Under the pieces are notes generated by a model that ran no database searches, was not told where the DNA came from, and saw only the letters and a program-made list of their open reading frames with translations. A stretch of 64,000 nucleotides of DNA, from contig ML991771.1 of assembly GCA_010094025.1 (NCBI GenBank), positions 310,001-374,000 of the forward strand, given 5' to 3'. Every line of letters begins with the position of its first letter. The stretch's first letter is position 1. Of the stretch, positions 2,222-58,972 are shown in pieces. The translations under genes and the position numbers were made by a program. Source of the DNA: Viridothelium virens. Its lineage: Eukaryota; Ascomycota; Dothideomycetes; Trypetheliales; Trypetheliaceae.

Positions 2222-4318
2222 ATGGCACTCGAGGAGAGCCCATCCAACGACTTTCGCAAACTTCGTGTCGAAACCAATTCTCCTATAAGACCTCCACCTT
2301 CTCCATTCGCTGCCCTCTCACATGATGATTCGGTTGCCGAGGGCAGTCAGGAAACTTTGAGACCTGTTGGGGAAGTACAAGAGACCTCTTTGGATACTGG
2401 GCCTGGAGGGCACCCAGAGCTTCCGCTGTCGTATGGGTCGTCACACTCCGATGCGGTTACTTCTAACTCGGAGTCCCCAGATGGTTCAACGCGAGCTCGT
2501 GGCTCGATTTGCTTTAACGACAAGATAAGACTTGACGATGGCCGGGTCCACTCATTACACGAGCCGTTATCTAAGAAGAAAGGCCGGTCAAGATCCCGTG
2601 GGCGCTCAATCTTGCAAGAACTCGCGCAAGATCTCAACAATTCTGAAGGGGCGGTTGAGAGTCCAGGGTATGCAGGAGACCTCAAAGAAGACCCATTCGA
2701 TGCCAGGGTCATGCCGTCCGGCAGAGATACGAGGAGACAGCAGGCAAATGGAAATCACTTCCTCGAATCCACTGACGATAAGCATCCCCAGCAGAATGAG
2801 GAGGAGCTGAAAGATTATGATAAGGTCGCTTCTTTGACCTCAGATTCAAGCGTCTCTCCCTCTGTGGACGAAGTGAACACTCCAATTGACGCCATACCTC
2901 AATTGGACAGCCTCCCTTCACCCGTCGCTACCGGCTCACCTGCTTCCTATACAGCGAACAGCAACACCACTGGTCCGATTCCAATGCCTTTCCTTCGACG
3001 CACTAGCTCCGCATTCTCCAAAGGCGCTCTACCAGACGGCTCCCGCCCTGCCAATCTCCGCCGCAATAGCCGCCGCCACTCACGACGGTCTACCTCCAAT
3101 TCAACATCCAAATCCCCCGCAAGCGCCTTCCTTTCTCAATATGCCGCCGGCGGGGAAGAATACGCCGCTCTCGCTGAACCTGACCACGAAGGCCAAGAGA
3201 TCGGCGACCACAGCAAGTACATCATCGGACGCGAGATCGGGCGCGGCGGCTTCAGCTCTGTCAAGGAGGTCTTCACCATGGAAGGCTCGACGCGCATCCG
3301 GCGCGCGGTCAAGATCGTGCGCAAGCGCGTCCCCGGCGCCAGCGAAGCCGAGAACGAGAAGATGCAGGCCAAGTTCGAGCACGAAGTCTCGGTCTGGCGC
3401 TACCTCCGCCATCGGCACATCCTCGCCCTCCTCGCCGTCTACGACACCCCGTTCGCCACCTTCTGCATCACGCGCCTCAACCAAGGCGGCACCCTCTTCG
3501 ACCTCGTCCGCCGCAGCCGCAAAGCCAGCACGGGGGCCGCCGCGACCACAACCACGACCACGACTGCCACAACTAGGGGCACAGGCACAACTCCCACCCC
3601 AGCGCGCAAGCCCGGTCTCCCCGCCCCGCTCGCAACGCGCTACCTCGCGCAACTCGCGTCCGCGCTGCGCTACCTCCACGAAGACGTCCGCATGGTGCAC
3701 CGCGACGTGAAGCTGGAAAACTGCCTGATCGACATGAGCGGCGCGGAGGCGCACCCGCGCGGCTTCGGCACGCTGCAGCTGTGCGACTTCGGCATGGCGG
3801 ACTTCATCACCGAGGACAGCTGCGTGTCGGACATTGCGGGCGCGGTGCAGGAGGACGAGCACAGCAGCGGCGGCAGCAGCAGCAGCGGTGGCGGTGGCGG
3901 CGGTAGCGGGGGGAAGAATGCGCAGTCGGCCGATCCGTCGGTCGTGCTTGGTAGTCTGGAGTATGCGTCGCCTGAGGGCTTGGCGAGTCGCGGCATCCCG
4001 ATGTTTGTTACGACGGGCGATGTCTGGGCGTTTGGCGTGATTGCCTTTACGGTGCTGGTTGGGGAGCTGCCGTTTCGGCACGAGTTGGCGCCGAAGCTGC
4101 AGAGTAAGATTTTGGGTGGGGAGTGGGATGTGCAGGCGCTGAGGAGGGCGCCGGCGGTGGCAGAGATGGAGGATGGGGAGGGGAAGGTCGAAGAGATGGT
4201 GAGGGGCTGCTTGACGGTTGATACGGCGGAGAGGTGGCGTATCACGGATGTGGTGGGCAGTCGTTGGCTGACGGAGTATCAGGATTCTGAAGAAGAGACG
4301 GATCGGTCTTGGGACTGA
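2222..4318 (+). CDS. Serine/threonine protein kinase with long N-terminal extension
   Basis: One exon, 698 residues, starting at ATG 2222. Residues 1-330 are Ser/Pro-rich and probably disordered. The kinase domain spans about 331-694: glycine loop GREIGRGGFSSVKE, the lysine in RAVKIVRKR, catalytic loop MVHRDVKLEN (~490), CDFGMADF (~520) and SPE in place of APE (LGSLEYASPEGL). All catalytic residues are present, so it should be active. The domain looks CAMK-like; I cannot name the orthologue. Two low-complexity inserts interrupt it: a Thr/Ala/Pro run at ~440-465 before helix E, and a Ser/Gly run at ~547-564 inside the activation segment between DFG and SPE. Base composition changes inside the gene: the first third is ordinary, the rest very GC-rich, C-rich on the + strand until ~3700 and G-rich from ~3840 to the end. 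Confidence 0.9.
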   Translation: MALEESPSNDFRKLRVETNSPIRPPPSPFAALSHDDSVAEGSQETLRPVGEVQETSLDTGPGGHPELPLSYGSSHSDAVTSNSESPDGSTRARGSICFNDKIRLDDGRVHSLHEPLSKKKGRSRSRGRSILQELAQDLNNSEGAVESPGYAGDLKEDPFDARVMPSGRDTRRQQANGNHFLESTDDKHPQQNEEELKDYDKVASLTSDSSVSPSVDEVNTPIDAIPQLDSLPSPVATGSPASYTANSNTTGPIPMPFLRRTSSAFSKGALPDGSRPANLRRNSRRHSRRSTSNSTSKSPASAFLSQYAAGGEEYAALAEPDHEGQEIGDHSKYIIGREIGRGGFSSVKEVFTMEGSTRIRRAVKIVRKRVPGASEAENEKMQAKFEHEVSVWRYLRHRHILALLAVYDTPFATFCITRLNQGGTLFDLVRRSRKASTGAAATTTTTTTATTRGTGTTPTPARKPGLPAPLATRYLAQLASALRYLHEDVRMVHRDVKLENCLIDMSGAEAHPRGFGTLQLCDFGMADFITEDSCVSDIAGAVQEDEHSSGGSSSSGGGGGGSGGKNAQSADPSVVLGSLEYASPEGLASRGIPMFVTTGDVWAFGVIAFTVLVGELPFRHELAPKLQSKILGGEWDVQALRRAPAVAEMEDGEGKVEEMVRGCLTVDTAERWRITDVVGSRWLTEYQDSEEETDRSWD

Positions 4319-5306
4319 CCGCATTGTTATCGCGGAACGGAAATGGACGTTTTGTGAATATGCATTGTTTCACACGCCTTTCTCATATGTTTGCCTTGCT
4401 TTTTTGTCCTCGAGCGAAGCGAATGCATTCTTGACGACCCGTTATGATACCCTGTTTCTATTGTTTTTGGAAAGTCTCGCCTCGCTTGTATATCTTCATC
4501 GTCGGTAGCATTTATTCTCTTCTCACCTCTGCGATGCAGTTCTGGCTGCTTTGCTCTACCTTAATGTACGGAGTATAGTAAACCTCCTCGATAAGGTTAA
4601 TGACGATTGGAGACAGTCAGCAATAGTATTGGCGGTCGGCAATGCTATAAGTCGAGCAGCCTGCCAGTATTCAATTCCTATTATATATCTCAACTGAACA
4701 ATTCCTCCCCATGGTTGATGACTTTAGTGTACTTGTTAATGGTTTAACTATCCACCAAGCTCTCCAAGACCTCTACCTCTATAACATCTCACTCTTTTAA
4801 TCTTACAATATTGTTCGAGGAGACGAATCAGCATGAGACAAATGAGTTGTTTTCCGACTTTTATATTGGTCTCATCTTGGTGTGATACCAATGCAGCACT
4901 GCAGGTCGTCCAATTTTACCGCGATAGGAGACACTGGGTTTTACCACCTAGTTTACAAGACGGTATCTTATTTTCTCGAGACCCATCCGGAGTATCATCT
5001 AGGAAATACATGATATCTTGAAACTGTCCCACAAGGTTGTCCGGGGGCGGTTTGCAGAAAACACCAGACCCAAGCGCTGACGACCAGGAAAGGAACTTCA
5101 GCCCACGAGGACTTCCACCAAACATTCCCATCCCACCTGTCCGCGCCATTTGGACATCTCGAAATCTATGGACGTGTAGCCTCACGAGCCCCTACAGCCC
5201 CTGCGCTCAAAATCCGATCTTTCCTCCCATCCACGCAGTTCAAATTCAAGCATTCTCGCGACCCAGCCTGTGACGTTGTGATGGACCCAAGGGTAGATTT
5301 TGATGG
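4319..5306. other. intergenic region, convergent gene ends
   Basis: Lies between the ends of the kinase (+) and the peptidase (-). It holds one exact copy of the recurrent 9-mer TACGGAGTA at 4567-4575 and a doubtful 77-codon frame listed separately. Otherwise AT-rich with no recognised feature. Confidence 0.5.
4916..5149 (-). CDS. doubtful small open reading frame
   Basis: An ATG-started frame of 77 codons, ~160 bp downstream of the trypsin-fold peptidase and in the same direction. The predicted product begins MARTGGMGMFGGSPRG and ends SCKLGGKTQCLLSR; no domain, signal peptide or repeat is recognised. It could be a chance frame, a decayed gene, or a small protein linked to the peptidase gene. 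Listed only because its length and residue make-up look somewhat coding. Confidence 0.15.
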   Translation of the reverse strand: MARTGGMGMFGGSPRGLKFLSWSSALGSGVFCKPPPDNLVGQFQDIMYFLDDTPDGSRENKIPSCKLGGKTQCLLSR

Positions 5307-14522: not shown

Positions 14523-15472
14523 GGTGCGAGTCCATGGGTTTTCCGAGCGAGGAACGATAAAGCAGTACATACGGTGATAGCGTAATGCCATCATCCTTGG
14601 ACCTGAAGTTATTCTCGATTTCCATATCCATTTGACCGGTCTGGCCCGCCACTCCCTTCTCTCTCTCTGGAAGAGGAGAGAGGCCGCCGGCAGGCGTTTT
14701 ACTGGATCGGCACACATTTCCATTGTCCCTGGTAGCGATGCATTGACGGAGCGGGATCTGTGCTTTTCTCTCTGGTTTACAACCTTCTTGTGTTTTCCTT
14801 TTCTTTGAACAAGCCGATACACCTTTTTTCCTTACTGTTCGTAATGGCTAAGCACTGAAGCATGGAGAGGTGCATGTGAGCCAACCAAGTGGCGGTTGGT
14901 ATTTCTAGCTAGGTATATAATGTCACTGCTCAATACACCGTGATAGCGAACTTGAGACTTCACTCCATAACCATAGCGTAGGCCGTATGGGACTTGGAGT
15001 CTGCTAGAAAAGTAATGATCTTCATGGTTGCAGTGCGGAGCTTTTTGCCGGCTTAGGGGCAATGCAATCGGCCATTCCGCTTGAGCGATGCTCTCGTATT
15101 CTTGTTTCAGATATCAAAATTCTGCATTGGAAGCTTGCATGAGCGTCAAGCGTTCACGTTGGGTTATGTGCCGTGATTCGCCAACATCTCGCGCCTATTG
15201 TGTCAAAGCGCCTGAGCTTCTCGCCGCTCATGCAGTTCGCTTAATAAACTTTCAGTGACGTATGTACCAATCTGCAAAGTCAACCGGGTCAAAATTCCAA
15301 TTATTTTAGCACGGTCCGCTGAGTCTCCTCGGTAATGCTACTACATACGGAGTATCCTATCACTTTAACCTACAATACTTTGGACCCCTCTGCAACTTCA
15401 CAGCCTTCCAACTGAGCCACCACCTTCCCTTCTCTCTCCTTCGCCATCCCACAACTCCTATCAACTCCACCG
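14523..15472. other. intergenic region, VAC8 3' side and CSL4 promoter
   Basis: 950 bp. It holds an exact TACGGAGTA at 15346-15354, about 120 bp before the CSL4 start, and a C-rich leader from ~15,400. Nothing else recognised. Confidence 0.5.
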
Positions 15473-16247
15473 ATGCAAACCGCCCTCGTCCTCCCCGGCG
15501 ACTCCCTCGGTCCCACCTCCAAGTTCCGCCCCGGAACCGGAACCCATCAGCACGCCTCCCACCTCTACGCCTCCCTCCTCGGCCCCGTCTCAAGCTCTTC
15601 CGCACCAGCCGCTCCTCCTCCACCTCCTATTTCGACCCCTTCAGCCCCTTCCGCAAAATCCGCCTCCCTTCCTAGGCTCTCGATCGCGCGCCCCTCTCCC
15701 TCAGATTCAGATGCGGGCTCCGTGTTCGGCAAGTCTAGCACGACGACCCTGCCAGAGGTGAACAGTGTTGTGCTGGGGCGGGTAGTGCGTCTGCGGCAGC
15801 GCGAGGCGGTGCTGGAGATTCGCGTCGTTGGGGAGGAGGTGCTGGGTGTGGGCGGGGTGCAGGGGGTGGTGAGGGCACAGGATGTGCGCGCGACGGAGAA
15901 GGATCGGGTGAAGGTGGGGGAGATGTTTCGGGTGGGGGATGTGGTGAGGGGAGTGGTGGTGAGTTTACAGTCTCTCGTTGGAGGATTGGTTGATTTGAGT
16001 TGAAAGAGGGGACGAGGATGGGATGAGAGCTGATTGGGTGAGGAATTCGAGGACACGATGCTGACGGTTTTGGCAGATCTCCCTGGGAGACCAGAGCAGT
16101 TACTATCTCTCTACTGCGAGAAATGACCTAGGTGTCATCATGGCGACGAGCGAGCAGGGCAATGGGATGTACCCAATCAGTTGGAGGGAGTTCAAAGACC
16201 CAGTGACTGGAAGCACAGAGATTAGGAAGGTTGCGAAGCCGGTTTGA
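15473..16247 (+). CDS. CSL4: RNA exosome complex subunit Csl4
   Basis: Two exons, 15473-15958 and 16077-16247, join at phase 0 (donor GTGAGT, acceptor GGCAG), giving 218 residues. The N-terminal domain has VLPGDSLGPTSKFRPGTGTH, the typical Csl4 opening; a Ser/Pro/Ala-rich linker follows; then the S1-like RNA-binding domain (LPEVNSVVLGRVVRLRQREA, VRAQDVRATEKDRVKVGEMF) and the C-terminal ISLGDQSSYYLSTARNDLGV. Csl4 is one of the three cap subunits that lead RNA into the exosome in nucleus and cytoplasm. The first exon contains a sharp change in strand composition: C-rich until ~15,740, then very G-rich to its end. Confidence 0.92.
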
Positions 16248-17070: not shown

Positions 17071-19568
17071 ATGGGCGTAGGTGCCATGATTACCCCTCCA
17101 TAGACGTCATCGGACTGTCAAACTAATATCCTGCGTACCTACAGTTTGCGCAGAAGTTACAGGCTGCTCACGCCGGTCAGCCTGCCGCTGGCGGAGCTCC
17201 TGGAGCTCCTGGAGGCTATCCCAGTCAGGCACCTCCTCAGTCTGGAGGAGGCAGCTATGTGAGTGTTTGCTCTCCTTGCCATCCATCTGCGTCTGCAAGG
17301 TGGCGAAGCAAGCACAACTGACCAAGTACGCCCTAACTAGCCCGGTCAAAGCCAGTACCAGCCTTACCAAGGAGGAGCGGGTCGCCCGCCGCAAGGTGGA
17401 CAGCCGCCTTACCCACAGGGCTCGGTAAGCGTGTTCTCTTTTTTGAACCTGCGTCATCCTTTGATATCTTGGCATCAACCATACATCACAATACCACACT
17501 TGTCTATGCAATTTCGATCCGCTTGATCCTTGGACTGCTCCGAAAGCCTGCGACGTCATTATTCTGCGCTCTTTCTCAGCTGTTCGGTCGGGCGCCCCGC
17601 AACTACCTACTGAGATGGCCGGTCGTTATCAGTCCTATTCAGGCAACTACGGTCCTCCTCCATCTCAATCTCCATACCCCCAGTCTTCGCAACCTCCCTA
17701 TCCTGGAAGTCAGCAACCACCTCCTAGTCAAGGCTATCCTCCACAACCTCCCCATCAGCAATACAATCCGGGTAACTACGGACAACAACCACCTTATGGT
17801 CAGCAACCGCCATACTCGCAGCAACCCTCCTACGGACAGCAACAAGGTGGTTATTCCCAGTATAGTAGGCCAGCGCCGCCACCACCGAGTCAACCATCTT
17901 CAGGATATTCTCAGGCGCCTCATCCCCCATCTCTAACGCCGGCTCAGGGCTACGGATCGCAGGCTCCTCAGCCCACATCTCCGTACTCCCAACCACCACA
18001 ATATGGCTATGTTGGTCTCATTCACTAGACTGCGTTTATATTTTGCACGTCAGACTGATGGATGCTAACATATTTTTTTAACAGGGACAATCTGGTCCAC
18101 CACCAGCTGGCCAATACCCTGGTCAACAATCTCAATACCCTGGGCAGGGCCCTCCTGGTCAGGGCCCTCCTGGGCAATATGGCGGAGCTCCTCAACAGGG
18201 TCAGTATGCCCAACGTCCTCCTCAGCCAGCCGGTCCGGCGCAGATCGAGTCTTATAAACAAAGACTGCATCAAACCATCCAGGAGAAAGGATTACAGAGG
18301 CTATACCCGCCGGGGTCACCGGCTGTCGATCAGATTGCACAAAAGGCATCCTACCAAGTCGACCAGCTCTGCGCAAACTGGAGGCTTCCAAAAGAGATAG
18401 GAAATGATGTTGTATCGCTTGGCCTTTACGATGTTATCATCTATATCGGTGAGCAGAGGAAATAGTGGTGCCGTTTTCACATTGACAGCGATTGACCCTT
18501 GGCAGATGACAGTGGATCGATGCAATTCGAAGAAAATGGTGAACGTATCAAGGACCTCAAATTGATTCTTCAGCGCGTTGCCTATGCTGCAACGCTTTTC
18601 GACGACGACGGTATCAGCATACGTTTCATGAACAACTCTCCTGAAGAGCGCGGCATTCAATGCGATAACATTAAGAATGAGCAGCAAATCGAACAGCTGG
18701 TTGGTAGTATCCAGTTCCGCGGTCTTACCCCCATGGGAACTGCGCTCAAGAAGAAGGTTTTGGATCCATTGATCATTGGACGGGCGCGGTCTGGCCAACT
18801 GCGCAAGCCTGTCCTTGTTTTGACAATCACCGATGGGCAGCCTGCAGGAGAGCCTCAAGGCGCAGTGTTTGAAGCTGTACGCACTACGGTGACCGAACTT
18901 TCTCGTCTACCCAACGGACCTGGCCAGGGCGCTGTTGCTTTCCAATTTGCCCAGGTTGGAAATGACGAAAAGGCCCGCGAGTTCCTGTCACAGCTTGACT
19001 CGGACAAGTCTCTCGGAGATTGGATAGACTGTACCTCGAACTACGAGAGCGAATCCGCAGAAATTGCACGCAAAAATCCAGGCACTGATCTTTCTCCCGA
19101 TGAATGGCTCATGACTCTCCTCCTCGGAGCCATTGATAAATCTTACGATACCAAGGACGAGACTCCTGGCTCTGGTCCACCCCCAGGCGCTGGTCCCGGA
19201 GGATATGGACAGCAAGGAGGCTATGGAGGACCGCCGCAAGGCCAGTATGGAGCCCCACCGCAAGGCCAGTATGGCGCACATCCGCAAGGCCAGTACGGAC
19301 AGCAGGGTGGCTATCAGCCTCAGCAAGGAGGGTATCCACCTCAAGGTCAGGGACAATACGGTCGCCCGCCTCCTGGACCTCCTCAGGGAGGAGGCTACGG
19401 GGGACAACAGGGTGGTTACGCTGGACAGCAGGGCGGCTACGGTGGGCAACAAGGTGGCTATGGTGGACAGCAAGGTGGATACGGAGGAGCGTAAGTAGTC
19501 TATGTTATTCTCAACATGATCATGGCTGATTATGTGGATCTAGTCCTCCACCACCACCCCGATACTAG
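17071..19568 (+). CDS. vWA-domain protein with Pro/Gln/Gly/Tyr-rich arms
   Basis: Seven exons in phase: 17071-17076 (ATGGGC only), 17145-17258, 17341-17424, 17615-18010, 18085-18448, 18506-19490 and 19544-19568, giving 657 residues. The protein starts MGFAQKLQAAHAG, has ~240 residues of Pro/Gln/Tyr-rich sequence, a helical linker (IESYKQRLHQTIQEKGLQRL) and a von Willebrand A domain with an intact MIDAS metal site: DDSGSM, the threonine in GLTPMGTAL and the aspartate in TITDGQPAGE. The tail is built of GGYGGQQ-like repeats and ends PPPPPRY after the last intron. Without that last splice the frame would stop at 19494. The fourth exon boundary is the least certain: acceptor TACTGAG, and GTTGGT as its donor. 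No signal peptide; a cytoplasmic scaffold or condensate-forming protein is a guess. Exact function unknown. Confidence 0.82.
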
Positions 19569-19927: not shown

Positions 19928-21994
19928 TCACGCAGCGTGTGCGAGAGACGATGGATCTAGTTCGGCATTTTCGTCAATGAACCCAGAAAGCCGGCTATGC
20001 GGTTCTTCAAATCGTGATCGACTTTTCTCGCTTTCCTCTGGGTCCCGCCTAAGCGGCTTCGATAACGAAAGCTGTAGAAGGACCGAGGGCAACGGTGCGA
20101 CGACATCTTCTTTTCGAGGATCTGGGACTGCATTAATCTTCCCAGTGCCTAATGCAGGTTTCTTCTTCATCTCATCGACGGCGTTCCAATCCTCCCACTT
20201 CGGGTCCGTTGACAGTGAAAGTAATTCATCACTCGTATACCCTTCATCCCTTGCTCCTCTGTAAACCTCAAAGAACTCCTGCTGCTGATCGCAGCTGCGA
20301 CACAGTGACAACATCGAATGATAAGCCACCTTACTCATCTCTTTTCGCCTCTTCCGACCCACTAGATTCCGCTGCCCCTCCCTTTCCCTCAAGTCCCCGA
20401 TCCTCGCCCAAATCGCCTTTCCACCCATCCAATCCTTCCTCTTCGTACAATCCTTCAGAAATATCGTCAGCCCTCCGACATCAAGCCCCCACCCCTCCTC
20501 CACCATCTCCCCATACAGCTTCAACGTAGCATCCAACCCCGCAAACTTCAGCATCCCCCCCATCACCGCCCCAAACACGTTCGGATCCGGATTCGGCTTC
20601 TGAACCACCTTCGGCCTCCTTCTCCTCGCCCAACCATCCTCCTCGCCTTCCTTCCCCACGATCCAGCCGCTCTCCGGCTTCTCAACCAGCCGTCCCCGAC
20701 TCGCCTCGTTGATCCGCACCCCGCGCCGAGCGAGCATCAACCCGGTATCCATCCCGCGCATCAGCCGCACGAAGGCTGCAAACGAGGCTGCGTTTCCCTG
20801 CCGTATGTATTCCTTCAGCACGGTGGTGCAGGTGACCTCGTTGGGCCGCGTGTGCGTCTCGAGCAGGGAGTCGAGCGTGATGTCGAAGAGCGGGAGGCAG
20901 CGCAGGTTCGCGAAGGAGGATAGCAGGATGTTGTACGTTGTGATGTCGGGCGGGGACGAGGAGACGAGCAGGTTGTGCGCGAGTTTCGGGATGAGCGTTT
21001 CAAGGAGCGGGAGCAGGCCTGATGTGGTGGGACGGGCGCGGCGGGTGGGTTCGAAAAGGGAATTCAGAGCGGTGTTGAGATCGTGGGCAGCGTGGTGGGA
21101 GGAGCCGGTGGGGGGTTGCTGGAAGGATGGGGATGGGGTCGAGAAGTTGGGAGGGTGGTCGGAGGGTGCGGTCCAGGGCGAGGAATGGGTGATGGCTTGG
21201 TGGCGATCTTCGAGGTTTTGGAGCATGCTCAGGAGGGATGAGCGAGGTAGGGCCGCGAAGGGTTGGATAGCGGATGGGAGCTCTTCCAAAGCAGGGCCGG
21301 GATAATCGTAGATCTTGAAATAGAGGAGGGCGCGGACGACCAGTCTTTCGATCGAGAGGTTCAGTGTTTGTATCTTCTTGGGCGTATGCCGTCTTCTACC
21401 TGCTATGTCTTGTCGGACCTCTCCAGCATAGATAGATTGAGGTGGTAAATGGTTATTCGTGCGAGGCGATTCTCCCATGTTGATGGGAGGCTCTGATTCT
21501 CCATTTATTGGCTCATACAAAACGCTTAGGTCCAATGGCTCCATAGGTAGAGAGTGATGGGCGCTTTTCGCTTGAAGTGTACTGTCCAAAGAGACTTGAT
21601 AAGACAATGCGGGCAGATTGAGATTGCCATGAACTCCTGGTTCATTCTCAACCCCCAATGTATCCACGGGGATCAATGCCTCCTTAATTGATTCGTTCCG
21701 GTCTTGGGTATCTCCCTCTCTTGTCTTTTGGCTTGATCCATCAAGGCCAGTGTCCTTCACACGTTGGATTGCATCGTCCCACTGTTGCCGTCGTTCTCGC
21801 TTAACCCGAGCATCTGCAACAGCCGCAGCAGCAAAGACTGTTGAATAGAAGAGCGTAGATGAGACGCAGACTTTTCCAAGTCGCCTACCAGCAGTAGCCG
21901 TCGATCCTTTTCTGGCAATCCCCGGAGTGCTAGACCTGCATGCTGGGCAGCGGCATGAGGATGTCTGTATTGCCCGGGACCAGAGCTTTTGCAT
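19928..21994 (-). CDS. Mitochondrial pentatricopeptide-repeat (PPR) protein
   Basis: One exon, 688 residues, ATG at 21994 (a GTG codon directly before it should not be used). The N-terminus MQKLWSRAIQTSSCRCPACR is basic, Ser- and Cys-rich and lacks acidic residues, as in mitochondrial presequences; this opening is familiar from a conserved fungal PPR family. Helical-pair repeats are visible at ~345-420 (PDITTYNILLSSFANLR, RPNEVTCTTVLKEYIRQGN) and ~470-580 (PDPNVFGAVMGGMLKFAGL, SKVAYHSMLSLCRSC). PPR proteins bind organellar RNA and act in its processing, stability or translation; the RNA target is not predictable. Base composition inside the gene is uneven: on the + strand 20,340-20,700 is very C-rich and 20,850-21,300 very G-rich. 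Confidence 0.82.
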   Translation of the reverse strand: MQKLWSRAIQTSSCRCPACRSSTPGIARKGSTATAGRRLGKVCVSSTLFYSTVFAAAAVADARVKRERRQQWDDAIQRVKDTGLDGSSQKTREGDTQDRNESIKEALIPVDTLGVENEPGVHGNLNLPALSYQVSLDSTLQAKSAHHSLPMEPLDLSVLYEPINGESEPPINMGESPRTNNHLPPQSIYAGEVRQDIAGRRRHTPKKIQTLNLSIERLVVRALLYFKIYDYPGPALEELPSAIQPFAALPRSSLLSMLQNLEDRHQAITHSSPWTAPSDHPPNFSTPSPSFQQPPTGSSHHAAHDLNTALNSLFEPTRRARPTTSGLLPLLETLIPKLAHNLLVSSSPPDITTYNILLSSFANLRCLPLFDITLDSLLETHTRPNEVTCTTVLKEYIRQGNAASFAAFVRLMRGMDTGLMLARRGVRINEASRGRLVEKPESGWIVGKEGEEDGWARRRRPKVVQKPNPDPNVFGAVMGGMLKFAGLDATLKLYGEMVEEGWGLDVGGLTIFLKDCTKRKDWMGGKAIWARIGDLREREGQRNLVGRKRRKEMSKVAYHSMLSLCRSCDQQQEFFEVYRGARDEGYTSDELLSLSTDPKWEDWNAVDEMKKKPALGTGKINAVPDPRKEDVVAPLPSVLLQLSLSKPLRRDPEESEKSRSRFEEPHSRLSGFIDENAELDPSSLAHAA

Positions 21995-25926: not shown

Positions 25927-27618
25927 TCATGCACGATTCCCATGCGAAATAAGCTTCGGCAATCTGACACAGACCCATCGCCGCTTCGATCTTGCAGCAT
26001 CTAGTGGCTCCACGTTTTGCACCTCCACGACCTCCTTCACCTGAGGCACCTTGACCATAGAAGCACCGGACGCGATTGGCAACGCAGGGCGCAATCGAGT
26101 CTGTTCCGTCTTACCCATCTGCCTGCCTGCCTCAACATACCTCCCCTCCACGAACTCCACCCACCTCTTCACGTCCCTCATAGTGCTCATCGCCCCCAGA
26201 CTCACCCTCACCACCCCAGTCGGCTTCCCGTCCACCAGCTGTACCGGATCACTGCACCGATGCCCGTTCGCATACGCCTCACGCATCTCACCTGCTCCCC
26301 ACTCTAGATACCCAGCCATCCCCCCCGGATTACACAGCGAACCACTACGCACCGCAATCCCTTCCTTATCCGCCGCACGCTCCACATCCGCGTACCCGAC
26401 CACCGTCCCATCCGCTCGAAGCACATTGAACGCCACAGTCGCTCCCTGCGTCACTGCACCCCCATACACCGCACCCTCATCATTATAGACCCGCACCACC
26501 GGCGCCCCCTCCGGGGACGCATGCCGCAGCGCCGTCAGCCGCGCATGGAGCTCGCGCACGAGATGCGCCGTGTGCGCCGAGACGAGCGCCATGGAGCCGA
26601 ACAGCGCGGCGTGCGTGTCCAGCGCGTGGTCGAGCGCAATGATGGAGTGGAAGGGCAGCGTGCCGTCCTCGAGGCTGGCGTGCGGCTGCGTCTGCTTCTT
26701 GGCGTGCCACTCCGCCGCCGCCGGCTGCGAGATCACCATCTCCACGGTGCCGCCCCCAAAGTAGCGGCGCCCGTGGGTCAGGAGGTGCGCGGACGCCTTG
26801 CGGACGATGAGGGCGCCTAGATCGGGGAAGCCGAAGATCTTGTAGAAGGAGAGGGCGGTGAAGTCCGGGGCTGCCGAGGAGTCGCCGAAGTCGAGCGGGC
26901 GGGTGGTGCTGAGGGCGGCGGCGTCGAGGAGGGTGTAGATTTGGTTTGAGGCGCTGTGAGCCGCCTGGGTGGCTCGGATCTCGCCAGGCCTGCTGGTGTG
27001 AGTATTTTGGATGGATGGTCGAGAAGTAATTTACTCACCATTTTAGGGGCAATCTTCTGCCGGTCATGTTCGACTGCCCGGGATATGCAAAGAGGCCAAG
27101 GGGGCTATCCTGTCCATTGCATCCACCATCAATCCAGCGCTGGACGTCTTCATCAGAGTGAAAGAAGCGATTGGATCCGCTATTGACCTCGCGAATGCCA
27201 ACGAGGCTGGTATGTGCATCACGATGCCAACCGTACCAGAACCCGGTAGGTGTCTCGATATTGCCAGGGTTGGACGAGATATCTCGAAACGCATCTGCCA
27301 CGATCTTGATTGCTGCTGTTGCATTTGCCACGAAAACCAAGTCAAATTCGTCAGGGCTAGCGTTGAAAAACCTCAGGGCCCGTTCACGGACTTTGTCGAT
27401 CCGAGCACCACTTAGAGCAGATGGAGTCGAGTCTGAATGGGGATTGCCATATATATGGGAATTGAGGTCTTTCGAGAAACGTTCGATTAAGGTCTTAGCA
27501 TAGAGCTTGGAAAGATTAGATATTGGGTTTGATGGAGGATCTGCAGACTAACCGTAGTTCCTGCATGATCAAGGTAAGTTTGTTCTGACGAGCTGCCATT
27601 AGCAAGTGGATACTGCAT
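25927..27618 (-). CDS. Class V aminotransferase-fold protein related to molybdenum-cofactor sulfurase, without MOSC domain
   Basis: Three exons, 27618-27553, 27505-27039 and 26989-25927, join in phase to 531 residues. A stop lies four codons before the ATG. It contains EQTYLDHAGTTLYAKTLIERF, VFVANATAAIKIVADAF, GRRLPLKWPGEIR, the PLP lysine in ALSFYKIFGFPDLGALIVRK, YFGGGTVEMVIS, and the sulfur-accepting Cys in RSGSLCNPGGMAGYL. All of these match the NifS-like half of MOCOS/HxB/ABA3. Those enzymes usually have ~800 residues with a C-terminal MOSC domain; here the chain ends ~60 residues after the NifS-like domain. It could be a stand-alone desulfurase paralogue rather than the true cofactor sulfurase. 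The + strand is C-rich at 26,140-26,540 and G-rich at 26,600-26,980. Confidence 0.85.
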
Positions 27619-37058: not shown

Positions 37059-37402
37059 GGATACAGCATGAGCTATGAGCATTTATCGGGATATTCATCA
37101 CGATATGGAGTTTGGATTTCTACAGGGACATGGTCTGAATATTGGATCCTCGGGTTAGCGATTTGCATATAAGAGGTATGCCAGCTAAGCAATGGATGAC
37201 TAGTATAATCTCTACACAAAGCTTTCTTGTGTGATATTTTGTATTGTTCAGGGGCTTCAAATTGGGTGCTACCGAATGCTGTTAGACGCTCGCTAAGCGA
37301 CTAATACTGAGGCTGCCATGTTTTCTGGAGTTTGTCTAAGTTCAGCCACGGAATCATCTCAAACCTTCCCTTGCCTTTGAGCCTCATCACCTTCTCCCTG
37401 GC
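37059..37402. other. convergent 3' intergenic region
   Basis: 344 bp between the DPB3-like (+) and MFS (-) gene ends. Nothing recognised. Confidence 0.5.
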
Positions 37403-39084
37403 TCAATCCCTCTTCCTCCCAATCCGAGGCAACGCCATCCAGCACGCCCAAGCCGCCGCCAACATCGCCAGAACAATCGGCTGCAATACCTGCACGCCTC
37501 TCGCCTGAGCAATGGCACCCACCACGAACGGAAAGATTGCAGCACCACCTCCTCCAAACGCACTCGCGAACCCAACCGCGCTAACATGCAGATGCTTCGG
37601 CAACAGCTTCGTCGCCGCCACCACCGCCGCCGGAAACAACGGCCCAAGAAAGAACCCCTGCAGACTCACCGCCACCGCACCCACATAAAACTGCGGCACC
37701 AGCCAAAACAACAACTGCAACGCCATCGCCACAGGCAAGTACACCGCAATCGCGAGCTTCTCCCCAACCCTCGGCGTCACAAACCCCAACACCACCCTCC
37801 CGACCGTGATGCCGAGCCAAAACCCCGTCTCGACCATGCCCGCGCTGAACGGCGCCCCGTGCCGCACCGACATCATGAAGGTCACGATCCAGCCCCCGAG
37901 CGTGACTTCGACGCCCACGTACAGCAGCAGGAAGACCGAGCACAGCCAGGTGGTGCGGGCGGCGGGCGCGCTCGCGATCGCCTCTTTCATGCGGGGCCCG
38001 GAGGAGGCGGAGGTGCGTGGGTGGGCGGCGCGGAAGGCGGCGCCGGTGGAGCGCCAGAAGGCGTGGGTGGAGAGGAGGAGCTCGAGCGCGGCGCCGCCGA
38101 TCTAGGAGGGAGGCGAGTGGTGAGTTGAGTTGGGTGGGAAATGGTGTTGGAAGGGGGAAGGGGAGGGGAGGGGAGGTGAGGGGACGGGGGAGGGAGGGGA
38201 TGGCGTACCATTAGGTAGTAGAAGGTATACCAGGGGAAGCGGTCATTCACGACCATGGTGGTGGCAGCGAGGGGTGCGATCACGGCGCCAAGGCCGTAGA
38301 AGCCGTGTAGGAATCCGAGGATCTCGTTCGCGTTCGCCATGTTCCCAATCCAGGCGTTCCAGGCGCCATCCTCGATGCCATTCCCAAACCCTGCGAGGGC
38401 GAAGATGATGATGAGGACTGGATAGGGTGGATGGAGGGCAATGACAGTATAGGCGATGAGATGCGAGAGCGGTCCGAGGAATGCGATTCCCCGCTGGCCG
38501 AATTTCATGTGTATTGCGTTGTTCAGCAGAGCAGCGGACGAATATCCAGCGAATGGGGTGAGAAAGACAAGCGAAATCACTGTATAGCTCAGGTGGTAAT
38601 ATTTTTCCAGCTAGATGGTGTTAGCGATGTTCTATTTGCAAGTCGACTTAGGCGTACGTAGGGTATCAAGGCCTAGAATCTCATGAGCACACTATCTCTA
38701 CGTGAGACATCCACGGCGACTTACACCATACGCTGCGTCATTAGCTCCCATTATCACGAATGACCAAAAGGTTGCAGCTGTTCGGTAGGCATTGACCTTT
38801 GGTGAGTTCCATCGGGGTAGCTCCTCGAAAGCTACAGAAGGGGAAGGTAGAGTTTCGTTTCTATCCTCTGTTTGCTGTGTGCTTGCTTCCGCCTCGACAA
38901 TTTCACTGTTATTCCTGACTTTAGTCTTTCGTGGAATTCGTCCTAGCATAGATAGGAGGGGTTTTGTTCTGTGACTGTTGCTGCTGCTCGGAGGTTGACC
39001 ATCATGCTGCTGAGGAGTATGGTGGACTGGCTGCAGTTCCAGTACTTGTGTTGCAGAGGATTCACTAATTGGAAAAGATGACAT
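37403..39084 (-). CDS. Major facilitator superfamily transporter (BSC6/fucose-permease-like)
   Basis: Five exons, 39084-38725, 38672-38658, 38610-38209 and 38101-37403, plus the introns between them, give 491 residues; note that these are four coding blocks, one of them only 15 nt. The micro-exon 38672-38658 encodes ALIPY and restores the family motif MGANDAAYGALIPYLEKYYH; skipping it keeps the frame. About 100 polar residues precede roughly twelve hydrophobic spans. Recognisable pieces are SLVFLTPFAGYSSAALLNN, GFGNGIEDGAWNAWIGNMAN (helix 4-5 region), GFLHGFYGLGAVIAPL, and the second-half segments GWIVTFMMSVRHGAPFSAGM and FWLGITVGRVVLGFVTPRVG. These fit fungal relatives of fucose permease. 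The substrate is unknown. The + strand is C-rich to ~37,850 and G-rich after ~37,960; the intron 38102-38208 holds a G-run tract. Confidence 0.88.
38138..38200 (+). other. G-run tract with G-quadruplex potential, inside an MFS intron
   Basis: The + strand has repeated runs of four or five G separated by one or two other bases (GGGGGAAGGGGAGGGGAGGG and onward), more than four runs in a row. This fits the rule for intramolecular G-quadruplexes. The transcript of the MFS gene would carry the C-rich complement. Confidence 0.7.
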
Positions 39085-50006: not shown

Positions 50007-51702
50007 TACTCCGTATCGCGCTTTGAATCCGAGAGAGAAGCGACTCGAAGTTTGACTACTCGAGGGAACCGCTAACATCGCTTCAAAGCAACAGCATAAT
50101 AAAGTTACAGAGCTGTTGCCAGGAAACGTGAGTAGATATTGTGTGAATCACCTTTTTGACACCTGTTAGGATAGTAGACGTCAACAGAGTAAGGTAATGC
50201 GACGACAAGTCAGCCAGCTAATCTTACTGGACCAGGAGCGGAAGCACGAAGGCCACCAAGGCAGTAATTGCGTCCTGGCACGGAATAGTTCGGCTGATTT
50301 CCGGGCATTCTGGAATGATTATGATATTTTCGATATGATGCTCTATACCGCCATGGAATTGCTGTTGTCAGCTGCAAATTGATATGCATACAATCAGGGA
50401 CGCAGACTCTGGCTGGTGCATTTTGGATTCGAATACTTGTTTGGCGTAAGAATGCGTAAGGGCTGGTGATCCTGAAGTTTGTTGTCATTACTGTTAGGCT
50501 AGTACTCCGTAGATGTCTCGGCTTTTGCAGTTATCGTGCATTCTGGTTTATCCAGTGGATGTAGGCCGTAGAATCTGAAATTACTCACTGTAATTAAGGA
50601 GACAGACCGCATTCAGCTCTCATTACAACCACGTAGACTACCATTGAAGATCACTCGCAAGCTGCTGGTTGTAATAGGAACCCATGGGATGTCTTGATGA
50701 CTGACGTCGATAGGTATTATGTACGCAGTACTTTCACCCTTTGGCCGCCCAACTTTTCATTCTCCGATATTCCTCCCTTGGGCAATTCTTGGTGCTGCTC
50801 TAAGCGTACCGGGTCCTTAGGGTCTCTACGAACGGTCATATTGAGATCGGTACAGTATCATACGTAGATTACTCTGGGGCGGGCACCCACATCGGTGGCT
50901 TCCAGGATTTGGCCATCCGCTCTGGGGAACTGTTGCTGAGATCAGTCCGCCTGTCCGCAGTACAGGGATGTAACGACAAGTGCTCCGTACTCCGTACTCC
51001 ATGCTGTATATTGGACATACGCTTTGCCGGTCTATGCCATTACGGTCACTGGGTGTACGTAGGAGAAGGGAGTTTTAATCCACGGAAAGGTAGGATTTCG
51101 TAAGGCGCTGGTCTACCGATCTGCGCGCTTTTTGTGGGGGCTCTAGAAACCCTAATCTGAAGACTGGTTCCGTATTTCACCCTTTGTCAATTCATGTGCT
51201 ACCACCGTGTTGGAAGGTTGAATTACAGCTGCTGTGTCATCTCTCAAGAACAGGGCGCAACTATTCGTTACGATATGAAGTATGCGCTCGGGCATGTTCA
51301 TCATCAATGACGATTGGTCGGGTAGGCTTTGCGAGGTCTAGTAGGCGGGGATTGGTTTAATAACGAGGGGGATTTCATCACGTCGACGACTTCTGGCCGG
51401 CGGGGCTTCCTGTTCTGGCCAGCATCTCCATCCTCTGCCAGATCGGGCCTGTGCACTCGTGCACCTGTGCACCTCCCGCAGCCTCAAACGCTTCCCGCTT
51501 GGTGCGCTCCCGTCTGCCAAGACCTCCCATCTACAATCCCCAATCCCCAATGATTTGTTTCCGTTCCTCATTGATCGGTGATTGATACTGACAATTCTTC
51601 CATCTTTGCAACTCATTAATCACATTCATTCACTGTGGCAATCGTTATTCCATTCTCATTAGCACAGATACTGTCTGCTCTCCATAACTCCGCGGTCTCA
51701 GG
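50007..51702. other. 1.7-kb intergenic region right of the MITE
   Basis: No gene recognised. Exact TACTCCGTA copies lie at 50007-50015 (touching the MITE end), 50503-50511 and 50988-50996; the last is part of a short tandem run, CTCCGTACTCCGTACTCC. The final ~150 bp are CT-rich and probably the promoter and leader of the UBL3-like gene. Confidence 0.5.
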
Positions 51703-52593
51703 ATGGCATCGTCAACCATACCCTCCACCGCCCCAAACGGCACAACAGACGTCCCTCAATTGGGAGAAATGACACCCTCCAGTCCCCTCGAAATGACTAG
51801 CTTCATGACGCCGCCAGAATCAAATTCACCACAAGATCCAACAACCCCAACACTCAGCTCCACGGCTCTACCAAACCCAGAACCAACCTCTGGTCCTTCA
51901 ACCCAGCCCGCGGATCAAAGTGGACTTGATCAAACGCAACCCTCTCCTCAATCCTCAAAGCCAAACACCGCGTCTCTTCAACGGCGAGAAACCGAAGCCA
52001 TTGGCCCCTCCTCAGATGATCCTCCCCTTCAGCATGACAGCTCCACAGGGCCTGCCGTCATGATCACGCTTTTACTGACCAGCGGCGCGCGCCACCCATA
52101 TAAAGTCGACGAGAAGTATCTGCGGCGCCGTAACGTAAGCGTGGACGAGGTTGACCAGAATGGCGTTGTGGATCCATTTGCAATCAGCGTGTACACGCTC
52201 AAGGAGCTGATCTGGAGGGATTGGCGCGAGGATTGGGAAGCGAAGCCGAATAATCCGAGCGCGATACGGTTAATTCATTTCGGGAGGATGTTGGACGATA
52301 AGATGGCGTTGAAAGGTAGGCGAATCCTTCCTGTCTTGAGGATGTGTGCTGGATAGTGTGCGCTTTTCCGCGAAAGCATTTGAGCAGTTTGAGCTTGCTG
52401 GCTTCCTTCAGATGCACGTGCTGATGCGATCACAGAGTGCAAATTTCTTCCTGATGCCACAAACGTTGTTCACATGACCATCAAACCGCAGGAATTACTC
52501 GATGACGAAGACGGCAAGACTGCAAAAGGTAGCAGTGGCCGTCATCAGCATGGCGATGAACATACACCCGGTTGCCGATGCGTGATTCTTTAA
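51703..52593 (+). CDS. UBL3/MUB-like membrane-anchored ubiquitin-fold protein
   Basis: Two exons, 51703-52315 and 52412-52593, join in phase to 264 residues. Residues 1-118 are Ser/Pro/Thr-rich and disordered. From ~120 a ubiquitin-like fold follows: VMITLLLTSGARHPYKV, VYTLKELIWRDWREDW, SAIRLIHFGRMLDDKMAL, ECKFLPDATNVVHMTIKP. The end GCRCVIL is decisive: CVIL is a CaaX prenylation box and the cysteine two positions before it can be palmitoylated. Human UBL3 ends CCVIL in the same way. Such proteins are held on membranes and are not conjugated like ubiquitin, since no GG end is present. In animals UBL3 marks proteins for sorting to small vesicles; the fungal role is unknown. Confidence 0.88.
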
Positions 52594-53181
52594 GATCCCC
52601 GCTTTGTATGCGCTTACGACGAGGCATGCAAAGAAGTATATAAGGAGGACCAGTAAGTTGGAAGAAGGTCGAATCAGCGTAACTTCATCAAAAGAGCCAA
52701 CTACGACATCCTGGGATTGTCTCATTTCTCGGTGGACCTATCACTCGCTTCTATCGCCCTCTCTCCACCCTTGATATGGCGTTTGGAATATCCGTGGAAC
52801 CCGCGACGGAGTACTGGGCTTCTGGATTCCATGGGGTTCTGTTTGAGCATGTTGCTCTGCATCTGTCTCATGTGATGATAATTTGGGCTACAGTTCGAGG
52901 TCACATATGCGATCTTAATGGACGGGATATCGTAACGCCTCTATTCGTGCCTCAGCGGGACTGGCATAAGCGTTGCGCGTTGCGTTTTCAATTTACTATC
53001 GCTGTTTGCGCGTGTACCATAGACTCAGACTTACGTCTGCGATTTGCGGGACGAGCATGTAGTACATGAAATTGCATTATTGTACAGTGCCGTTTTGCTC
53101 TTTCGGACGCCATCTACGGATCCGTGTAGTGCAAGAAAACCTCGACGCTCACCCGTAATCAAGCCAGCCGCCCATCGACTT
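52594..53181. other. convergent 3' intergenic region
   Basis: 588 bp between the UBL3-like (+) and UMP1 (-) stops. A 97-codon frame at 52776-53069 (+) starts with ATG but shows no domain. Nothing recognised. Confidence 0.45.
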
Positions 53182-53788
53182 TCACCAATTCAGCTTCATC
53201 CTCGCCTCCATCTCCGTGTGGAAGTCGGGCACCTCTCGTCCCTCGTCACCTAGAAGGAGAAAACGTCAGCACCTATCGTTCACTCAAATCCCTGTATACA
53301 AAGCCGTAAATGCTTACCTGTAAACACATCCTCCCAATCCACTTCGCAATCTCTTCCTCTCAATACATCCGCATGTACGCCTCCAGCCTTCTCCCCACCC
53401 ATGACCCTCGGCCGCCACTCGGTTCCCTCCACAATCTTCATCTCCATGCCGCGCCGTACCGGCTCCGCGATCCCGTACGTGCGGCGCAGCCCTTCCATCT
53501 TCAACGCGTCCTGCGTAGCACGCCAGTTGGCCAACCGAGATTCAAGAGGATGAGACGAGGTTGGTTGCTGAGTAGAAGTGTAGTCCGAGGAGGATTTGAG
53601 AGAGGAGGGCTGCGAAAGGGAAAGGTTGGAGCGGAGCGTATCATGGACACCCGGGGCTGAAGGGGCAGAGGGACGGGGCTGCGTGGTGTTGAGGTTGCCG
53701 TTGGAGGGTGTAAGGCGGAGATTTGAAGTCTAGAAGGTTGAGATTAGTAGAGCAGATGTGTAAGGTGAGGAACGGTGGAGCTTACCAT
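53182..53788 (-). CDS. UMP1: Proteasome maturation factor UMP1
   Basis: Three exons, 53788-53786, 53729-53318 and 53249-53182, join in phase to 160 residues. The first exon is only the ATG codon (ATG|GTAAGC), followed by a 56-bp intron. The product starts MTSNLRLTPSNGNLN, then APSAPGVHDTLRSNL, then the conserved core HPLESRLANWRATQDALKME, LRRTYGIAEPVRRGMEMKIV and the end VPDFHTEMEARMKLNW. Ump1 is a short-lived chaperone that helps join half-proteasomes and is the first substrate of the finished 20S particle. The + strand switches from C-rich to G-rich at ~53,520. Confidence 0.95.
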
Positions 53789-54969
53789 GGTCGGTAGATT
53801 TGTGGAAATAACTTATCGAGGATTGATAAGTTGGAGAACTCGAAAGATTGCTATTGTAGCCCCAGAAGGAACTGAACTGGCGGGTGGAGGGCGGTTACTA
53901 TGGGCAGACTGGATAGTGTCTGTAAGCGTCAAGTAGAGAGGCAGCAAGAGCTTCGCAATAACGGAGCTGTTGATTAAAACGCGGGTTACGTAAGCGGAAA
54001 GCAAAGTTCGCCGCAACTCTACCTTAGGTAAGGCAGGGCATCTTCTTCTAAAGCTTTACATACATGTATCTGCAAGCAACAATCTATACCAAATCAATCA
54101 TGATGAAAAAAAGCGTGTAGATGTAGTCAGTAGGTATCCTCGATATCGCGTCTAAGTCACGCGTGCTTTTGGTGATAATGGAGGATGACGTTCCTGGACG
54201 TGTAGAAAAAACAGTGACTGCCGGAAGAAGCAGTCGCGGTTGCAGTGGGTTTGTTGAGGTAGTCATGCCAACACTGCGACTTTTTGAATCACTCAGACGA
54301 GCTCTTTCTATCCTTCTTATTCGAGCCAGCGTGCTTGAGCAGCTCACACGCTCCCTCAATTCTTTCTACTTCGGTCCCGGGTTATACAGCTATTCTCTCG
54401 AATCCTCCATTACCTAGACCTACTTCCTAATCCCATTTTTCCGACATCTCTACGGCAAGCGGGACGACTTAGTGATTTGCCTCAAGCGGCCTCCTCGAAC
54501 TGCTCACCCGACACACACGCCACTATATCCAGCTCGTTCGGTCTAACTCTGCGACTATCCTTGACGTCCAACGATCTCCACCGTTGGATGCCCTGCTAGA
54601 CCTTGAAGCTCTTTATTTCGGAACGCCGTGAAAATTTTCTGCTGTCGGAAGAGGAGGTCTTACACCGTTCCCTCGTTCTCACCGGGCTACGAGCAACCTT
54701 CTAAGAAAGAGGTACATTTTCAGCTACCAAAGAAGAGCAGCTTTTCGATAGGAAGTCGCCGTGGTGAACTGGCTAGTACCGATATTCACAGTACGAGTCG
54801 CTTGGGTCAGGAGCTTGACAGGTCCACTCTTCTTGGGGTAGACGCCGATACGTTAGACAAGTTGAACAACTCTCTACGCCGGCGTTTTAGCGTTCGATTT
54901 GAACACTTCAAAGATCACATCGGCGATCAGGCTTCGGCTCTCTCGGAGAATCTTCACACGCGAAGAGAA
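53789..54969. other. divergent intergenic region, may hide the taspase N-terminus
   Basis: 1.2 kb. Nothing recognised up to ~54,600. From 54607 to 54969 the taspase frame stays open without an ATG (it contains GTG at 54628), and its translation (RRSYTVPSFSPGYEQPSKKE, LDKLNNSLRRRFSVRFEHFK) looks coding, so the real start may lie here behind an unrecognised intron. Confidence 0.4.
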
Positions 54970-57214: not shown

Positions 57215-57717
57215 CCGCCTCGAGCCTCTTAATACCCTTCACTCCATACATCCAATCGGGTAGGCCTCTGTTCCTTTTCCAGTTCTTGGTTCTGTTCAAT
57301 TCCATCACCATCAAGATCCCTCAGTCCGTCGCTCCTCTTCATCGGCAAGTAGTAATAGATGTGCTTTTCTGAGCGTCTTTCCAAGATCTGCTGGTTTCGA
57401 TATGATGATTGCATTGCTGGGTGTAACATTCATAATTTTCGGAAGGAATGGATACACAGGCGTGCGAAGGATATACCCCACCTGCTTCTGTTGCTCTATT
57501 CGTCTGGGCATTCCGCATTAAGCGCTTTCCTCGCCTAGGTACCTGAAAATCGAAGAAATCTGTCATTTCCTTCCTACCTTGTCGCTTGTATCGTAAAACA
57601 CGTCCGCTGTCCCATGTCCTGGGAATCATTGGATCTATTGCATCCAGCTCCTCCGTCGATAGACCATCCCGAGTCAAACAGTCGTCCCTGCAATCTACCC
57701 ATATGATGCTCCTACTC
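57215..57717. other. convergent 3' intergenic region
   Basis: 503 bp between the taspase-like (+) and TFB4 (-) stops. Nothing recognised. Confidence 0.5.
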
Positions 57718-58972
57718 TCAACCCAAACCAGGCGTAGCCAACGGCGTCCCACTCCCGCTTGCTGTGCCCCCTTCCCCCTCCCCTCCTCTCTTCTTCTTCT
57801 TCCTCCCTGCCACCACTTTTGGCTCCCGCCCGTACCTGCCCAGCCGCAACCGCGTCCCACACGTTAAGCACACACCATCCCGCACGACGCCGCACTCCTC
57901 GCAGAAGATACTGAGGCAGATGCTGCAGACGTAGCCGATGGTCACCGTGCGCCGATGACAGAAGCACGCAGCTTGGAAGTTGATGGCGGTGCTGGCGGTG
58001 CTTGAGGAGGAGGATGCAGAAGTGGCGGCAGCGGTGGGCATGTAGAGGGCGCGGCGGGAGGTTTGATCGTGGACGAAGAGGGAGAGAAGCGTGGGGAGGA
58101 GGGCGATTGGGTTGGGGGGGTTAGGGCGTGGTGGGGCGTAGAAGATGCCGTTTGTGGCGTCGGCGGCTTGTTGGAGGAAGGCGGAAGGGCTGGTGGAGGG
58201 ATTCAGAGATAGCACGTCAATGGCGACGCGGAGGCGCTGAGCGGCGAAGATGCCGTTCATGAGAGGAATGTATTGTGTAGCAAGCGAGGTGGAGACGCTG
58301 AAGATGAAGATGCGGGACTGGAGACCGGTGAGCGGTGAGTTGGGATCGTTGGGGTCGGCGGTAGGTGGAGCGTCGTAAGTGTAGGACGGGTTTGGATCAG
58401 TGGAGCGGGTCGCATTGTAGGCTTCGGAGGTCTTGGAAATATAGCAGAGTGCGGTGGAAAGGGCGCCGGCCATCATGGTGCTTGTGGTCGATTCCAGAGA
58501 TGAAGGGTCGGTCGTGGACATGAGGGACCGTAGGCTTGCCATGAGTTCTTCCTCCACTTGTGCGAAAGGCTTATATTTGTTGCTGTTGTATACTGCGTTG
58601 CCGTTGGATATCGATGTATCGCCATCAGGTCCTGGAACTGCACCGTTTGATATATTCTTTCGAGTCCTAGCCGGAGTAGGATAGAGCCAGACTGCTCGAT
58701 CCGTATGGCTTGCTATTACTGCCACCTGATTCGCATGACTGAATGCTAAGTGGGCGTTAATGAAGATTTGCAAGTTGGCTACTGCATCAAGGAGCGTGAT
58801 TGTCTCGCGGAGGATGGTCCAGGCGTATGGATTCGTGTCAAGGATAATGACGAGCAAAGCTGGCGGAGGACCTATACATTCTCATCAGTGTATGCTTCTT
58901 TTCAAGCTCGATATGCCATCCGAGACCTTCTGAGCTTGCCTCCTGGCGTTCCGTTCCGTCGATGGCATTCAT
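57718..58972 (-). CDS. TFB4: TFIIH subunit Tfb4 (p34)
   Basis: Two exons, 58972-58927 and 58871-57718, join in phase to 399 residues, starting MNAIDGTERQEASSEGPPPA. A vWA-like domain opens with LLVIILDTNPYAWTIL, followed by INAHLAFSHANQVAVIASHT, GALSTALCYISK and GLQSRIFIFSVSTSLATQYI, and the conserved MNGIFAAQRLRVAIDVLSL. A C-terminal zinc ribbon has FCHRRTVTIGYVCSICLSIF, then CEECGVVRDGVCLTCGTRL. The end is basic (GRKKKKRGGEGEG). Tfb4/p34 pairs with the p44 subunit (Ssl1) in the core of TFIIH, which acts in RNA polymerase II start and nucleotide excision repair. On the + strand 57,580-57,900 is C-rich and 58,000-58,500 is G-rich. Confidence 0.95.

Follow-up and report, generated by a model that had tools for sequence, protein, structure and literature searches.

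Biased gene conversion is usually treated as strand-blind, with G and C gaining alike. Recombination hotspots of the mouse reportedly have a skewed base composition whose polarity flips at the hotspot centre (Smagulova et al. 2011, Nature). Here, we analysed a 64-kb stretch of the genome of Viridothelium virens, a lichen-forming Dothideomycete of the family Trypetheliaceae. This stretch, the window, comprises positions 310001-374000 of contig C1 (ML991771.1) in a 30.72-Mb assembly, and it holds GC-rich islands of ~1 kb in which the + strand is C-rich in the left half and G-rich in the right half. The VAC8 and TFB4 proteins encoded in it are 96% and 100% identical to V. virens entries. The mouse hotspots, as reported, are the closest precedent, in that the skew flips at the centre, the comparison being drawn on the flip and not on its order. 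Unlike in the mouse, the fungal skew is legible in single islands, lies in ORFs (open reading frames) and involves GC with almost no AT skew, and the position of one island, in the TFB4 gene, is kept across genera.

Footprints of human replication origins and meiotic breaks (PMC9645720, PMC7615360) likewise form a local strand-asymmetric signature around a centre, but they are mutational, and the break signature is apparently opposite in sign to that of the fungal islands. GC-biased conversion in the gerbil Pdx1 region (PMC6573468) resembles the fungal islands in a coding GC rise strong enough to alter conserved proteins, whereas the islands are strand-asymmetric with a fixed order. The 'GC skew' of the gerbil report was discarded as a candidate for the same signal, the term there meaning GC excess, as was PMC7447979, where the skew is one of protein binding and not of bases. 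Zymoseptoria tritici is, like V. virens, a Dothideomycete, and 1435 of its 2578 hotspots are exonic (PMC5844332), with no strand skew described in the available parts of that report. A literature search, in which sources were available in part, returned no prior description of a fungal strand-skew hotspot.

The C-to-G islands are real, strong and widespread in the sample analysed. The main scan covered 264 kb (C1:110001-310000 and the window), and four 10-kb stretches (40 kb) on four other contigs served as an extra sample. In a two-flank test, which requires both 400-bp flanks to be skewed in opposite sense beyond a threshold set per flank, the main scan gave 9 C-to-G and 0 G-to-C switches at >0.4, 14 and 2 at >0.35, 18 and 4 at >0.3, 32 and 10 at >0.25, and 41 and 21 at >0.2. 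All four G-to-C places found at >0.3 are island edges, lying 413-527 bp from an island centre, while of the ten found at >0.25, eight lie at 409-679 bp from a centre and two at 2-4 kb. Counts from a single z statistic are less one-sided (C-to-G versus G-to-C, 40 and 45 at z>=5, 32 and 22 at z>=6, 16 and 4 at z>=8, 9 and 0 at z>=10), because every island adds two G-to-C outer edges. The 32 C-to-G switches with z>=6 constitute the island set used below. Chance or gene-level skew was rejected as their source: three shuffles of 300-bp blocks in random orientation yielded, at z>=6, 10-12 switches of the C-to-G order and 12-14 of the G-to-C order, and 0-1 per direction at z>=10. Shuffles of 800-1500 bp blocks retain much of the excess because whole islands stay intact.

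When 800-bp peaks were chosen by GC alone and their polarity was scored afterwards, across the 264 kb and the 40 kb, the C-to-G order was found in 21 of 21 peaks with GC>=0.60, 25 of 26 with GC>=0.58 and 35 of 38 with GC>=0.56, and none of the peaks had a reverse amplitude >0.15. High GC and the C-to-G order are therefore coupled in this sample. On the other contigs, two of the four stretches contained an island (z 7.0 and 9.4) and two contained none. The density in the main scan, about one island per 8 kb, would extrapolate from this one contig region to ~3,700 islands in the whole genome (30.7 Mb), with which the 40 kb elsewhere roughly agrees. The two closest islands, C1:228992 and C1:229838, are just 846 bp apart, in adjoining ORFs on opposite strands, and the valley between them is the strongest G-to-C switch of the sample (z -9.6) and one of the four found at >0.3.

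The pattern had been proposed in a first-pass annotation of the window, made by a model from the letters alone. All 14 of the C and G counts per 60-base line that it quoted are exact, its seven named islands occupy ranks 1-7 among the C-to-G switches of the window (500-bp flanks, z 8.8-14.0), and the UBL3-like gene, listed as a weaker case, ranks eighth (z 6.6). The genes that it named at the islands are backed by Pfam, the PPR match lying just below the cut-off. It also described the switch as narrow, which does not apply to the protein kinase gene, where the change is broad and takes two steps, at 3137 and 3689 (150-bp resolution), although the C-to-G order is present there too. The GC-only peaks answer its own reservation that G-to-C switches might prove equally common, and a second reservation, that amino-acid composition might explain the skew, is contradicted by the fourfold degenerate sites described below.

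Averaged over the 32 islands, most of the left arm has C raised to.43 and G lowered to.15-.17, the right arm is the mirror image (G.43), and GC is maximal at the centre (.63) and reaches background by 600-700 bp; the centres of this profile were set with a 400-bp window statistic, a choice that biases towards arms about as long. Median arm lengths estimated from cumulative skew are 543 and 466 bp. Arms of ~0.5 kb match the scale of heteroduplex. The antisymmetric GC skew amounts to 0.395 (0.367 to 0.425) and the AT skew to 0.005 (-0.027 to 0.043), and the GC rise correlates moderately with skew amplitude (r 0.41).

All 32 centres lie inside an ORF of at least 149 amino acids. An ORF of at least 150 amino acids spans 31 of them, compared with 57% of 1000 random positions, although high GC itself lengthens ORFs. 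At 30 islands the ORF has a Pfam match, which fixes its frame even where the matched domain may fall outside the island; two sub-cut-off matches were kept, those of the PPR gene and of C1:266577 (27 against 28.1). The codon analysis used these 30 and omitted C1:112879 and C1:201022, whose ORFs of 603 and 340 amino acids have no Pfam match. As the first-pass annotation had noted, genes of both orientations carry islands (18 + and 12 -), and the signature is symmetric about the centre, independent of gene direction. The centre falls at 0.25-0.96 of the stop-to-stop ORF, with a median of 0.55.

At fourfold sites, left-arm C reaches.55 in + genes and.62 in - genes, and right-arm G reaches.54 and.60, whereas both bases are at.19-.29 at far sites. 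Fourfold GC is.70-.79 in the arms against.45-.48 far away, a local rise at silent sites. Folded to the C side, the 4222 fourfold sites comprise A.135, C.573, G.160 and T.133. Fourfold C exceeds the far level in all 15 neighbour contexts with data, which gives no sign of a mutator motif. Codon positions 1 and 2 are shifted as well, and the proteins are therefore altered. The presence of every centre in an ORF could suggest that codon usage, protein composition or a selected RNA structure created the islands, but we find this hardly credible: the switch occurs at fourfold sites and all codon positions, in the same order in + and - genes, and continues in flanks outside ORFs, although such flanks may hold other exons. 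The skew extends beyond the ORF on both sides in UMP1 and CSL4 and also in TFB4 and the UBL3-like gene, while the flank past the stop codon of the kinase gene has no skew. A selected RNA hairpin would permit either order. Amino-acid composition and codon usage are thus ruled out by the fourfold sites in both orientations and by these flanks.

The near-absence of AT skew bears on whether the islands arose by mutation or by transmission. Strand-asymmetric mutation at break hotspots, in which error-prone or translesion copying of resected single-stranded DNA adds C to one strand, has a partial parallel in human meiotic breaks, where strand-asymmetric substitutions including C>G occur in the flanking 2 kb and are partly ascribed to REV1 (PMC7615360). 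In the forward strand, however, the human substitutions are C>N and A>N (PMC7615360); read as the left flank, where that strand is the 3' tail, they would leave the left side C-poor, the opposite order. An equal N>C flux lowers A, G and T together and comes near the fourfold data provided that C>T is roughly as infrequent as C>A. With C>T-led spectra, on the other hand, N>C and G>C flux models predict AT skews of -0.25 and -0.24, because a flux to C makes T exceed A as the abundant C sites feed T through C>T, whereas the observed fourfold value is 0.007 (standard error (SE) 0.03, treating sites as independent). At a C>T:C>A ratio of 2 the predictions are -0.145 (N>C) and -0.130 (G>C), and at 1.5 they are -0.084 and -0.074, still off by about 3 SE. 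Fluxes confined to A>C or to T>C were rejected: a fit was obtained in 45 and 18 trials, respectively, out of 300, and the AT skews were close to -0.89 and 0.82. When fitted to C and G, fixation-bias models give an expected AT skew of -0.015 (-0.10 to 0.08), and strand-symmetric mutation with a transmission bias toward C (B ~1.6) and slightly toward G (~0.3) recovers the composition of the fourfold sites while leaving AT skew close to zero. Provided that C>T is clearly commoner than C>A, AT neutrality speaks for a transmission bias rather than a mutation bias. Considering also the lack of a neighbour-context preference, we regard a mutational origin, which the first-pass annotation had included in its proposed cause, as unlikely.

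The same annotation had offered a replication start as a possible centre. Replication initiation zones would impose a leading/lagging strand bias around narrow origins, and the leading-strand G excess gives the right order. Human origins show a local GC rise, and their skews have been modelled from mutation at origins (PMC9645720). The islands, however, are denser (32 in 264 kb) than known fungal origins, their centres lie mid-ORF, and the bias is over within ~0.7 kb. At an origin, AT skew would also be expected to accompany GC skew along the leading strand, and the AT component is absent. As this explanation acts by mutation, the AT-skew argument against mutation flux applies to it as well, and we consider it quite improbable. 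Divergent transcription from the centre gives the same skew order, as at CpG-island promoters, either from divergent internal promoters or through R-loops with G-rich non-template strands on both sides. We hold such a cause to be very improbable, given that the centres are spread over 0.25-0.96 of the ORF, the order is the same whatever the gene direction, AT skew is absent and, judged from the stop-to-stop ORF position, the centres do not appear to lie at transcription starts. Of the cause first proposed, the symmetric centre, the local GC rise and biased gene conversion at a recombination break fit best, and asymmetric mutation and a replication start are not supported.

We regard it as modestly probable that the islands are long-lived intragenic hotspots of meiotic double-strand breaks, at which C on the invading strand is poorly corrected in mismatches. 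In compositional terms, the islands behave like the conversion footprint of stable break hotspots, and we class them as candidate, not proven, hotspots; the centre would be the meiotic break site and an asymmetry of mismatch repair the cause. A break in the gene would be resected at its 5' ends, and the 3'-ended strand, which is the + strand on the left side and the - strand on the right, would pair with the homologue, where differences between the partners would become mismatches in the heteroduplex. Mismatches with C on the invading strand, C/C above all, would be poorly corrected and the C retained, while G and other bases on that strand would be swapped for the donor base. In the left arm, a G of the invading + strand would face a donor G, and G/G would be repaired toward the donor C, while an invading C would face C and be kept as C/C escapes repair. 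Over generations, the invading strand would gain C, making the left side C-rich and the right side G-rich, raising GC and lowering A and T equally, and ordinary GC-biased conversion may contribute to the GC rise. That strand-asymmetric biased gene conversion of this kind, through recurrent breaks at a fixed site, writes the C-to-G switch, marks stable hotspots and reshapes TFB4 is a tentative proposal, to which we give a little less than even weight.

During meiosis in yeast, C/C mismatches are reportedly repaired three to five times less efficiently, and single-nucleotide polymorphisms (SNPs) giving C/C or G/G are enriched 5.0 times among unrepaired markers (PMC3218862). Weak C/C repair combined with the polarity of strand invasion would therefore yield the observed C-to-G order; this derivation is our own, and the literature search, with sources available in part, returned no prior statement of it. 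The genome encodes a SPO11-type domain (PF04406, 54.4 bits against a cut-off of 26, contig C75). It also has one strong RAD51/DMC1 family gene (C27:277690-278740), represented by two exon matches that are each under the DMC1 cut-off, and a weak match on contig C6. DMC1 may be absent, these RAD51/DMC1 counts being lower bounds.

Protein sequences of relatives provide a further trace. For TFB4, we used an index of G-rich versus C-rich codons inferred from the protein alone, taken as the C-terminal minus the middle segment. The index is 0.81-0.89 in four proteins of Trypetheliaceae (V. virens, a relative, Bathelium and Bogoriella), whereas among the 116 other matches listed it averages 0.06 and peaks at 0.63. 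The four proteins have a common ancestry and do not count as independent cases. The best split falls at amino acids 321-322 in all four, and the DNA centre corresponds to amino acid 323. For the PPR gene, the index is 0.80 in Viridothelium, 0.73 in Trypethelium and, for the two proteins of Bathelium and that of Bogoriella, 0.57, 0.59 and 0.49, compared with at most 0.35 in 23 other proteins, and the best split lies at amino acid 393 in Viridothelium and Trypethelium (DNA centre 414). At least one island is thus probably older than the split of these genera, as far as protein composition can tell. The Bathelium PPR-like protein has glycine-rich insertions on the G-rich side of its island, and TFB4 has runs of serine/threonine on its C-rich side, which would fit a drive that adds low-complexity inserts as well.

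Several points weigh against the break-hotspot explanation. Hotspots of yeast lie mostly in promoters. Among unrepaired yeast markers, A/C or G/T SNPs are half as frequent and A/G or C/T SNPs about even (PMC3218862). Because repair is most effective for A/C or G/T mismatches, an additional GC-biased component is required for C to gain over A and T. In the mouse, the kind of mismatch has little effect on the bias of repair during single-strand annealing (PMC9001825). Neither the yeast classes nor the mouse annealing data support poor repair of every C mismatch, which lowers our confidence. Hotspot turnover is rapid in Zymoseptoria, where GC-biased conversion is absent or extremely weak (PMC5844332). 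Mutation flux fits the fourfold data equally well at C>T:C>A ratios of 1 to 1.25. AT neutrality is imperfect, the AT half-difference at 21 GC-picked peaks being -0.036 (standard deviation 0.073) beside +0.340 for GC, a small deviation with a sign opposite to that expected of mutation flux. Folding the third positions of all codons gives.160 for A and.121 for T, an imbalance that may stem from twofold codons, in which no silent A-to-C change exists. No motif beyond chance was found within 75 bp of the centres, the best 6-mer having z 3.5 against a shuffled maximum of 3.7, and thus the common centre motif of PRDM9-type hotspots is lacking. CG-containing words, which had emerged from k-mer comparison of centres with flanks, were dropped since a dinucleotide shuffle of the centres left none above chance. 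In the protein comparisons, the top TFB4 outgroup among the 116 matches listed reaches z 4.7 somewhere along its length, equal to the family. The PPR split lies at 567-582 in the two Bathelium proteins and Bogoriella, with z 3.9-5.1 overlapping the outgroup maximum of 4.6.

Tetrads of a few model species are otherwise where the invading strand of heteroduplex can be observed. If the break-hotspot explanation is true, the gain of C over G, A and T on one strand, mirrored on the opposite side, would point to that strand, and the switch would mark the break point within about 100 bp and give the polarity of strand invasion. One genome would then suffice to locate hotspots with their centres and to gauge their ages, allowing a family-wide map of stable hotspots from assembly alone, and whether mutation or repair drives the GC gain of hotspots would become testable through skew sign and AT neutrality. 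Conserved proteins such as TFB4 would then have been bent by a non-adaptive process.

Table. Islands with the C-to-G order in the window (positions relative to its first base).
Island	Gene	Extent	ORF, strand	Centre	Pfam match
1	protein kinase	2836..4314	2213-4315 +	~3811	Pkinase PF00069, E 1.7e-34
2	CSL4/EXOSC1	15352..16053	15416-16000 +	~15753	PF10447
3	PPR-like	20222..21280	19931-22063 -	~20821	PPR_2, 29.6 bits (cut-off 30)
4	aminotransferase class V	26113..27104	25930-27030 -; 27038-27547 -	~26512-26540	PF00266 (second ORF under the cut-off)
5	MFS transporter	37341..38285	37406-38101 -; 37990-38610 -	~37918	PF07690
6 (weaker)	UBL3-like	51422..52400	51688-52353 +	~52046-52098	PF13881
7	UMP1	53139..53847	53283-53729 -	~53536	PF05348
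8	TFB4	57640..58463	57721-58881 -	~57902-57970	PF03850

Besides these islands, the window contains weaker C-to-G switches at ~35952-36034, ~29087 and ~63498 (z 4.5-5.6), some of which may be the weaker cases of the first-pass annotation. At 17501-18000 there is a C excess on one side (skew -0.34) and no G-rich partner arm, which could represent a one-armed or decayed island. Noncoding RNA and tRNA were considered as island content and discarded, as the window yielded no Rfam match at the gathering score and no tRNA with ARAGORN (bacterial code). Long antisense or alternative-frame ORFs lie within the islands at 3101-4324 - (407 amino acids, in the kinase gene), 37340-38125 + and 26308-26817 +, with no Pfam match. 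These ORFs look like by-products of high GC and could mislead a gene finder.

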